From: Acidimicrobiales bacterium
GTDB taxonomy: Bacteria > Actinomycetota > Acidimicrobiia > Acidimicrobiales > SKKL01
Length of the DNA stretch: 64,000 nt
Reading direction: 5' to 3'
Assembly: GCA_034521975.1 (NCBI GenBank)
Contig: JAXHLR010000008.1
Location: 62,001-126,000, forward strand
The notes beneath the pieces are model-generated. The model made no database searches and was not told the origin of the DNA. It saw nothing but the letters and a program-made list of their open reading frames with translations. Positions within the stretch are counted from its first letter, which is position 1; the number at the start of each line of letters is the position of its first letter. Of this stretch, positions 8,808-12,038 are shown piece after piece. A program made the translations under genes and the position numbers.

Positions 8808-11800
8808 TCAGGCCTTCTCGAGCGGGGCCCAGGCCAGCAGCAGGCGCTTCTCGCCCACCGACGGGAACCGCACCGTGGCTTCGGCTTTGTCTCCTTGGCC
8901 CTCGATGTCGAGGATGACGCCCTCGCCCCAGGAGTTGTGGCGCACGTCGTCGCCCACCTTCAGCCCGAGCCGGTCGGCGCCCCGCAGGTTCGGCCCGGCC
9001 GGGGCCATGGCCTGGTCGACCACCCGCTCGCGGTTGGCCGCGATCCGACCCTGACCCCGGGATCCACCACCGGACCCGAACCAGCCCGACGACCCGTCTC
9101 CCCGCCCTCGTCGACGAGTCGGGCGCTCGTCGGCCTCGACCAACTCGTCGGGGATCTCATCGAGGAACCTGCTGGGTGGGTTGTACTGGGTGGACCCGAA
9201 CAGGGTGCGGCACCAGGCGTGGGTGAGGTAGAGCCGCTGCTGGGCCCGGGTGATGCCCACGTAAGCGAGGCGCCGCTCCTCCTCCATCTGTTCGGGCTCG
9301 CCGATGGAGCGCAGGTGGGGGAACACGCCGTCTTCCAGTCCGATCAGGAACACCACGGGAAACTCCAGACCCTTGGCGGCGTGCAGCGTCATCAGCACCA
9401 CCGACGACGCGTCGTCGGCATCGTCGAGCTCGTCGGTGTCGGCCACCAGGCTCACCTGTTCGAGGAAGTCCTCGACGGTGTCGAACTCCTGGGCGTTGCC
9501 GACCAGCTCGGCCAGGTTCTCCAGTCGGCCGTCGGCCTCGATCGAGTGCTCGGCCTGCAGCTCGGCGACGTAGCCGGTGCGGTCGAGGATGGCCGACAGC
9601 ACCATCTCGGGGCCTTCGTGGCGGGCTTGGTCGAGCTCGTCGAGCATCTCGAGGAACGACTCGATGCCCTTGGTGGCGCGTCCGCTCACCCCGGCGTCGT
9701 CGGCCCGGCGCAGCGCGTCGACGAAGGTCATGTCGCGGGCCTGGGCGTAGAGGTCGAGCTTGGCGACCGAGCTGTCGCCGATGCCCCGCTTGGGCACGTT
9801 GAGGATCCGCTTGATGTTGACCTCGTCTTGGGGGTTCACCACCGCCCGCAGGTAGGCGAGGGCGTCCTTCACCTCGCGCCGGTCGTAGAAGCGGGTACCG
9901 CCGATGACCTTGTAGGGGATGCCCGAGCGCATGAGGTGCTCCTCGAGCACCCGGCTCTGGGCGTTGGTGCGGTAGAAGACCGCGACGTCGCCCCACCGGA
10001 TCTCGCCCTCGTCGTGCAGGCGGGACATCTCGTGGGTGACCCACTGGCCCTCGTCGGCTTCGTCGTCGGCGTGGTACCGGCGGATCTTCGGGCCACCGTG
10101 CTGGTCGCTCCACAGCTCCTTGGGCTTGCGGCCGAAGTTGTTGGCGATGACCGCGTTGGCGGCGTCGAGGATCGTCTGGGTCGACCGGTAGTTCTGCTCG
10201 AGCAGGACCACGGTGGTGTCGGGGAACGCGTCCTCGAACTCGAGGATGTTGCGGATGTCGGCCCCCCGAAAGGCATAGATGCTGTTGTGAACCAGCACTC
10301 CGTCGGCCACATAGGTGTGGGTGGGCTCGACCTCGAGATCGTGGACGGGGCCGTCATAGTCGAAGCATTCGACCGACTCGACCGCGTGGTCGCACATGGA
10401 TCCGTCAGCGTCGGGTATGAGCACCCGCATACCGGGTCGGAGGTTGGCGATCGGCGCGATGTCATAGACGGTGCCGCCGAGCGCAACACGGCGCCGGATC
10501 TCCATGTCGCCGACGGCGGCGAGCTCATGAGCCAGTCCCACCGCCTCGCGGTAGTCGCCCACCACCGTTGCCCGGTCCCCGGTCTCGACGACATGCCCAC
10601 CTGACTCGGCGTCCGAGAACATGGTCAGGCTGGCCACACGGCGGCTGTCTGGCATCGCGTGAGGGAACTCGAGATGCAGGTCGAGATCGTCGATGAGCGC
10701 CTTGGCCCGTGACGTCGTGTCGAGCTCGAGGTAGAGGCGGTCGATCTGTTCGTCGTCCATCGCCAGTGATCGGCCGCCACCGTGGAAGCACACGGTCGGC
10801 AGTCCGTACTCGGCTGCAAACCATGACTCCCAGTAGCCGGCCTCGCCGCGGGAATCACAGACCCGGAGGATCCAGAGCTTGTCGGCGTGCTCCTGGTTCA
10901 CACGGACCCGTACCCCTGGGTCTGACCGTCCGGCGCGAGCAGGTCGTTCGCTCATCGCCTGGCCGATCCGGAATCCACGGTCGGCCCGATACATGAGGTA
11001 CACGACGAAGCGACCTGGACCCAGCGATGAGTCGAGCGGGACGAGATGATGCGGGGTCCCGACGATCGTCTGACCACCAGCGGTCACCTCATAGACCCTG
11101 CCCTGGTAGTGGCGAAGGGGTGCAGCCGAGACGACACTCGGCCGCAGGACTCCCCTACCGTCGGCTCCGAGAACGGAGTCACCGGTTTCGAGCTCCTCGA
11201 TGGGACGATCACCCGCTGGGGTGGCGATGAGCGTTCCCGGGAGTAAGCACTGGTCGCTGTCGCCCACCACGCAGACGTTGCGATGGTCGGAGGCGAGGGC
11301 GAGCACCAGGTCGTTCTGGACCTTGTTGGTGTCCTGGTACTCGTCGACGAGGATGTGCTTGAAGCGGCGCTGGTAGTGCCCGAGCACGTCGGGGTGCTCG
11401 CGGAACAGCCTCACGGCGTTGAGCAACAGGTCGTCGAAGTCCATGGCGCCGGCCCGCCGCATGCGGAGCTGGTACTCGGCGAACACGTCGGCGATGCGCT
11501 TCTCGAACGGCCCTTGGGCCCGTTCGGCGTAGTCGCCGGCGTCGAGGCCGTCGTTCTTGCTGGCCGAGATCGTGGCCTGCACCTGGCGAGGCGGGAAGCG
11601 CTTGGTGTCGATGTTGAGGTCGCGGAGCACATAGGTGACCAGGCGCACCGAGTCGGCCTGGTCGTAGATGGTGAACGACGAGGGGAAGCCCAACCGGTCG
11701 GCGTCACGGCGCAGGATGCGCACGCACGCGGAGTGGAAGGTGGACACCCACATCTTCTGCGCGACCGGTCCAACCAGCTTGGCCACCCGCTGCTTCATCT

Positions 11801-12038
11801 CGGCTGCGGCCTTGTTGGTGAAGGTGATGGCGAGGATCTCGAAGGGTGAGACCTGGTCGTCGGCGATGAGATGGGCGATGCGGGCGGTGAGCACCCGGGT
11901 CTTGCCCGATCCGGCACCGGCCACCACCAGCAGCGGTCCGTCGCGGTGGGTGACGGCGTCGAGCTGGGCGGGGTTCAGCCCCGCGAGCAGCTCATCGGAC
12001 TGGGACGGCGGCGCGCCGGCGGCGAAGGGATCGGACAT
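8808..12038 (-). CDS. pcrA: UvrD/PcrA family ATP-dependent DNA helicase precursor containing an intein
   Basis: 1076-residue precursor. After removal of a 322-residue intein (residues 264-585) the mature helicase is about 754 residues, a normal PcrA/UvrD size. Helicase motifs: Q-motif region LNPAQLDAVTHRDGPLLV, Walker A GAGSGKT (41-47), ITFTNKAAAEMK (Ia), DEYQDTN (II, about 232-238), GDSDQ/SIYAFRGADI (III, split by the intein), LEQNYRS (IV), VVLMTLHAAKGLEFPVVF (V) and EERRLAYVGITRAQQRL (VI). The C-terminal Tudor-like tail VRHNSWGEGVILD is present. PcrA unwinds DNA in nucleotide excision repair and replication. No Shine-Dalgarno is obvious before the ATG; a TACGAT box lies 9 bases upstream, so a near-leaderless mRNA is possible. 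Confidence 0.95.
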   Translation of the reverse strand: MSDPFAAGAPPSQSDELLAGLNPAQLDAVTHRDGPLLVVAGAGSGKTRVLTARIAHLIADDQVSPFEILAITFTNKAAAEMKQRVAKLVGPVAQKMWVSTFHSACVRILRRDADRLGFPSSFTIYDQADSVRLVTYVLRDLNIDTKRFPPRQVQATISASKNDGLDAGDYAERAQGPFEKRIADVFAEYQLRMRRAGAMDFDDLLLNAVRLFREHPDVLGHYQRRFKHILVDEYQDTNKVQNDLVLALASDHRNVCVVGDSDQCLLPGTLIATPAGDRPIEELETGDSVLGADGRGVLRPSVVSAAPLRHYQGRVYEVTAGGQTIVGTPHHLVPLDSSLGPGRFVVYLMYRADRGFRIGQAMSERPARAGRSDPGVRVRVNQEHADKLWILRVCDSRGEAGYWESWFAAEYGLPTVCFHGGGRSLAMDDEQIDRLYLELDTTSRAKALIDDLDLHLEFPHAMPDSRRVASLTMFSDAESGGHVVETGDRATVVGDYREAVGLAHELAAVGDMEIRRRVALGGTVYDIAPIANLRPGMRVLIPDADGSMCDHAVESVECFDYDGPVHDLEVEPTHTYVADGVLVHNSIYAFRGADIRNILEFEDAFPDTTVVLLEQNYRSTQTILDAANAVIANNFGRKPKELWSDQHGGPKIRRYHADDEADEGQWVTHEMSRLHDEGEIRWGDVAVFYRTNAQSRVLEEHLMRSGIPYKVIGGTRFYDRREVKDALAYLRAVVNPQDEVNIKRILNVPKRGIGDSSVAKLDLYAQARDMTFVDALRRADDAGVSGRATKGIESFLEMLDELDQARHEGPEMVLSAILDRTGYVAELQAEHSIEADGRLENLAELVGNAQEFDTVEDFLEQVSLVADTDELDDADDASSVVLMTLHAAKGLEFPVVFLIGLEDGVFPHLRSIGEPEQMEEERRLAYVGITRAQQRLYLTHAWCRTLFGSTQYNPPSRFLDEIPDELVEADERPTRRRGRGDGSSGWFGSGGGSRGQGRIAANRERVVDQAMAPAGPNLRGADRLGLKVGDDVRHNSWGEGVILDIEGQGDKAEATVRFPSVGEKRLLLAWAPLEKA
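10284..11249 (-). mobile_element. Intein inside helicase motif III, with a GIY-YIG-like central domain
   Basis: 322-residue intein inserted between Gln and Ser of the motif III sequence GDSDQ/SIYAFRGA. Splicing blocks: N-terminal Cys1 in block A (CLLPGTLIATPAGDRPIEEL), block B with GTPHHLVP (TxxH-type His), block F VHDLEVEPTHTYVADG, and block G VLVHN with the terminal His-Asn, followed by extein Ser. All residues for splicing are intact. No LAGLIDADG or HNH signature is visible. Intein residues 81-150 instead read FVVYLMYRADRGFRIGQ, then an Arg-rich stretch, NQEH and GYWESWFAAEYGLPT, which match the layout of GIY-YIG nucleases. Confidence 0.92.

Follow-up and report, generated by a model that had tools for sequence, protein, structure and literature searches.

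The window analysed here is a stretch of 64,000 nucleotides from an Acidimicrobiales bacterium, and it contains a pcrA/uvrD helicase gene interrupted by an in-frame, stop-free insert of 322 codons. In a profile search the gene matches PcrA (TIGR01073) with 965 bits, in two stretches flanking the insert. The latter begins with CLLPGT, ends with GVLVHN followed by Ser, and splits PcrA between VVGDSDQ and SIYAFRGA (VVGDSDQ^SIYAFRGA), a point that we take to be helicase motif III. The features of the locus are:

8808..12038, minus strand: pcrA/uvrD helicase gene hosting the intein, 1076 aa including the intein (TIGR01073 PcrA, PF00580, PF13361)
10284..11249, minus strand: intein, 322 aa, Cys1...His321-Asn322, +1 Ser (translation, Hint_2 and TIGR01443 matches, AlphaFold model)
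11031..11249, minus strand: Hint splicing domain, N-terminal half, residues 1-73, with block B T65-P-H-H68 (PF13403, 1.9e-7)
10770..11015, minus strand: putative divergent GIY-YIG nuclease domain, residues 79-160 (predicted topology, hhalign, lowest dN/dS of the intein)
10998..11000, minus strand: Tyr84 codon, the 'GIY' tyrosine (60/62 relatives; aligned to the UvrC-type Tyr)
10962..10970, minus strand: Arg94-Ile95-Gly96 codons, 'YIG' strand with Tyr replaced by Arg (R94 in 60/62, G96 in 62/62)
10890..10904, minus strand: Arg116...Glu120 codons, helix 1, R and R+4 (R116 in 59/62, E120 in 56/62; model helix 112-119)
10827..10829, minus strand: Glu141 codon, putative metal-binding catalytic Glu, helix 2 (60/62; aligned to the GIY-YIG Glu)
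10641..10769, minus strand: helical extension past the nuclease, residues 161-203, ending near Pro196 (model helices H166-175 and H178-188)
10476..10640, minus strand: second domain, residues 204-258 (alignment gaps against 352-aa relatives; dN/dS 0.449, to be read as a rank)
10284..10475, minus strand: Hint splicing domain, C-terminal half, residues 259-322 (TIGR01443 and PF14890 matches)

The 322-residue insert is a real intein. All splicing residues are there (Cys1, T65-P-H-H68, H321, N322 and the +1 Ser), with His68 invariant in alignments A1 and A4, and the Hint_2 and intein_Cterm profiles exceed their own cut-offs. An AlphaFold model of the full-length intein reaches a pLDDT of 94.2, and a fold search with it matches solved inteins and hedgehog domains. 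From the intact residues and the Hint fold we expect the insert to be an intein of class-1 type and to excise itself from PcrA. A first-pass annotation of this DNA had placed the intein in motif III of pcrA with intact splicing blocks; its coordinates are exact and the description stands. Antisense ORFs over the intein are taken as by-products of high G+C. Outside the window, two other long ORFs of the same genome, of 2282 and 1219 aa (G000 contig C4:317833-321318 and 346961-347530), show several LAGLIDADG_3 matches and, judging from these, probably hold LAGLIDADG inteins.

Conserved residues and decay of the intein

Library profiles left the domain between blocks B and F without a name, and we therefore gathered relatives. 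The set, collected with the whole intein, comprises 62 inteins from the same family and class, from cyanobacteria, a Wolfebacteria (CPR) genome, phages, plasmids and viral contigs. Seven residues of the domain are near-invariant (Tyr84, Arg94, Gly96, Arg116, Glu120, Trp126 and Glu141), Trp126 being kept in all 62, and the rest of the domain mostly varies; Pro196, further downstream, is kept in 59. Such near-invariance shows that the motif text noted at first pass, VVYLMYR...RIGQ...NQEH...GYWESWFAAEYG, which is present as described, did not arise by chance. The list of candidate active-site residues proposed with it needs revision: Tyr84, Gly96 and Glu141 are retained, but Arg102 (27/62), Arg105 (5/62) and His121 (22/62) are not conserved, and in the helix it is Arg116 and Glu120 that are kept. 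No conserved Asn was seen at motif E in the alignment of relatives; this residue can be absent in GIY-YIG enzymes (PMC1564403).

Exceptions at the near-invariant positions are found mostly in visibly damaged copies. Locus L022 is without several of these residues, and L035 carries Tyr84Cys and Arg116Pro. The two copies lacking Glu141 (E to A), L010 and L011 of the sister genus, are also without the Arg116 segment, so that Arg116 and Glu141 are lost together. Genome G090 has two intein-bearing pcrA copies, L020 (contig C28) and L035 (contig C20), one of them without Tyr84 and Arg116; these may represent mixed strains, an effect of assembly or a true second copy.

In complete relatives the second domain, with its alternating strands and helices, is about 75-85 aa long; short phage forms lack it. 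We compared the window copy with that of its sister species by the NG86 method; dS is high, near saturation, and the dN/dS values, 0.064 for the nuclease, 0.142 and 0.205 for the Hint halves and 0.449 for the second domain, are to be read as ranks. This ranking suggests that the nuclease was kept under selection until recently, and that its partner domain is being lost. Decay appears to be stepwise: a same-genus copy of 352 aa is complete, the second domain of the window copy is short of about 30 aa that the sister species retains, and the sister genus lacks the active site. Two records of the same-genus intein, L002 (Acidimicrobiales MAG CSSed162cmA_159) and L009 (genome G003), have identical intein sequences and lie on contigs that match in length; they appear to be the same record, and are counted as one independent relative.

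We may hypothesize that the GIY-YIG domain is real but out of use, and that the window intein is in decay, a remnant with splicing as its sole activity. The partial loss of the second domain here and the loss of the active site in the sister genus both fit this idea, as does the intein tree, which follows the host tree within the window's own family, as vertical descent predicts. On the other hand, the window copy retains all seven near-invariant residues, and its nuclease is the intein part that has changed least relative to the sister species. On balance, we give such complete disuse slightly less than an even chance; it does not conflict with the explanation that we prefer for the whole family. 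The window intein is a putative homing element in early decay. Part of its second domain is deleted, which makes its present homing ability doubtful even with a GIY-YIG core that is intact and under constraint.

Relation to the GIY-YIG superfamily

Direct database searches say little about the nuclease. Searches of Pfam, NCBIfam and PHROGs with the window intein gave no nuclease match, sequence searches of solved structures with the intein returned Hint domains only, and the isolated domain, when used for a fold search of the PDB, yielded only noise at E>=1, with no GIY-YIG structure. Comparison with the PF01541 profile, the check suggested in the first-pass annotation, gave no significant result: the window copy is not matched, and 2 of 50 members match weakly (E 0.087 or worse), none reaching the gathering cut-off.

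Comparison between profiles is more informative. Using hhalign, we aligned a profile of 50 domain sequences with one built from 31 GIY-YIG domains of UvrC, Cho-like and small YhbQ-like proteins encoded in genomes of the phylum. The two profiles scored 32.4 (P 2.8e-5), as against at most 18.4 for 200 column-shuffled profiles and 9.5 for a reversed profile, and their Tyr, Gly and Glu positions were in register. Against phage homing GIY-YIG enzymes alone the domain scored 19.3, the best of 100 shuffles reaching 14.3. In the model, the order of predicted elements is strand-strand-helix-strand-helix (E81-88, E92-99, H112-119, E124-131, H134-148), and the domain folded alone shows the same order with a pLDDT of 89. 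Furthermore, a fold search of a viral library returned three matches at E<0.001, all of them the intein nuclease domain's own kin. The next ranks contained many endonucleases of the GIY-YIG, Seg-like or group I intron type, each at E 0.002-0.3 and with low TM-scores.

The domain shares with the GIY-YIG superfamily (UvrC/Cho, the YhbQ type, I-TevI and Seg homing enzymes; PF01541) the strand order, the GIY Tyr, the YIG Gly, and the helix Arg and Glu. It differs in lying in frame within an intein and in three further respects. The canonical YIG Tyr is missing, its position being occupied by Arg94 in 60 of the 62 inteins; Glu120 stands at Arg+4 in 56 of them, where His or Tyr is canonical; and Arg116 lies 20 residues past Gly96 instead of the usual 8 or so, which makes the loop before helix 1 longer by about 12 residues. 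The residue at Arg+4 differs among GIY-YIG families, being His in I-TevI and Tyr in UvrC. Nor do we take the YIG Tyr as universal, since T5orf172 proteins (PF10544), which are counted as GIY-YIG relatives, are also without it and have a charged residue in its place ('VKIG' in L119 and L121). T5orf172 is not supported as the closest subfamily: its profile match is weaker (20.8) and covers 25 columns only, and T5orf172 domains, unlike the present one, are not known from inteins.

An unrelated fold, either a nuclease or a DNA-binding domain, could have converged on the pattern of Tyr, Gly, Arg and Glu. The absence of a PDB match for the domain, the non-significant Pfam result and the replacement of two canonical positions are what such convergence would predict. 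However, it accounts poorly for the wide margin over shuffled and reversed controls that was obtained with each of two separate sets of GIY-YIG proteins, for an element order identical to that of GIY-YIG, and for the dominance of GIY-YIG enzymes in the viral fold ranks just under the family's own members, and we consider it unlikely. That the intein is of the usual LAGLIDADG or HNH type is highly improbable and was rejected, as the nuclease profile scores only 10.9 against LAGLIDADG_3 and 6.8 against HNH, and Pfam matches of either type occur in 0 of 25 members, even if the second domain of longer relatives scores faintly against LAGLIDADG_3 (17.3, shuffles at most 13.9, probability 3.5%). From this faint score we may suspect that an old LAGLIDADG half adjoins the GIY-YIG core, a weak lead.

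The profile comparison with its controls, the topology, the viral fold search and the conservation pattern together bear out the initial proposal of a GIY-YIG rather than a LAGLIDADG or HNH nuclease. We put at roughly 0.84 the probability that the PcrA intein carries an in-frame putative homing endonuclease of a divergent GIY-YIG branch, and class the domain as a divergent member of the superfamily rather than of PF01541 proper. In the proposed homing mechanism, the nuclease would cut a pcrA that has no intein, at the conserved motif III sequence, or, in the case of relatives, genes for phage helicases and methyltransferases; the allele with the intein would then serve as the repair template, so that the intein is copied into the cut gene. 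Phosphate would be bound by Arg116 and a single metal ion by Glu141, and Tyr84 would act as the general base. The second domain and the helical extension, perhaps together with the Hint domain, would determine which target is chosen.

Distribution, mobility and known systems

Among 118 sampled genomes of the order, the pcrA site is occupied in at least 9, empty in 104, where the match is unbroken, and unclear in 5. Trees were built for 20 pairs of host protein and intein. The branch on which the cyanobacterial host proteins stand has a length of 1.52 changes per site, yet the inteins of these proteins fall within the acidimicrobial intein group (enclosing group 90/90, branch 0.54). On these sequences, the trees show a movement of the intein between phyla. 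Two loci from the same class, L023 and L025, have a PcrA similar to that of the window and far diverged inteins.

Phage helicases have the module too, either at motif III or close to the DExQ motif, as does a Streptococcus phage methyltransferase, like flanks being found in several viral contigs. A scan of viral contigs with the single window protein gave no match; an alignment of distant relatives used as the query did find relatives. The view that GIY-YIG in an intein is rare, expressed at first pass, is understated in one respect, as the family is broad, spanning many phages and several bacterial phyla. One viral contig (L052:1882-6366, IMGVR_UViG_3300028920_000035) holds a single helicase-like ORF of 2381 aa with three inteins at different sites, all carrying this GIY-YIG-like domain. 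The intein type also occurs in another host protein, where the flanking sequence resembles WQHEP^C(L/F)YGW, at L046, L048, L060, L062, L068, L070, L072, L075, L076, L078 and L082; the host protein of L046 is annotated as an adenine-specific DNA methyltransferase.

A survey published in 2006 did not find GIY-YIG in inteins (PMC1564403). In the split NrdHF intein from Ace Lake, an ORF for a GIY-YIG-type putative homing nuclease lies between the intein halves (PMC7891396); in that system the nuclease has its own ORF between two gene halves, whereas in the PcrA intein it is fused in frame within a single intein. An intein in the UvrD of phage CampHawk has been reported, its nuclease type unnamed (PMC3868849). 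Inteins of phage UvrD helicases (SPO1 gp34.33, CampHawk, and E. coli phages such as JohannJBalmer) carry the same domain at the corresponding helicase site and are annotated as inteins in records that name no nuclease type. LAGLIDADG inteins (PI-SceI, PI-PfuI, VMA inteins) share with the PcrA intein the Hint splicing fold and the presumed homing logic, but have a different nuclease fold, and a LAGLIDADG signal is absent from the PcrA intein nuclease domain. In the open-access literature, to which the search was confined, we found no in-frame GIY-YIG intein, so that priority is not certain.

These observations raise the prospect, to which we give even odds, of a widespread undescribed class of bacterial and phage inteins with its own GIY-YIG homing branch (YLM...RxG...R-x3-E...W...E), established in no fewer than three settings (motif III of helicases, their DExQ region, and DNA methyltransferases), the bacterial forms being joined to a second domain that came, perhaps, from a LAGLIDADG half. 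If the domain cuts, it would be a third major nuclease type captured by inteins through fusion, and the family, in which near relatives have copies at a single site that are intact, half-decayed or dead, would allow the cycle of homing and decay to be tested for the GIY-YIG type. Compact, naturally fused GIY-YIG domains are also material for enzyme engineering.

Further inteins occupy the same pcrA site. Three from the same class are shorter (L031, L024 and L028, with 140, 238 and 260 aa), and their nuclease domain is apparently missing. A second pcrA intein lineage (L023, L025, L026, L028, L030, L031 and L032), with a C-terminus HNFVANGIVTHN or close to it, is about 31% identical to the window intein, and its hosts are 62-64% identical to the window PcrA (L023, L025).
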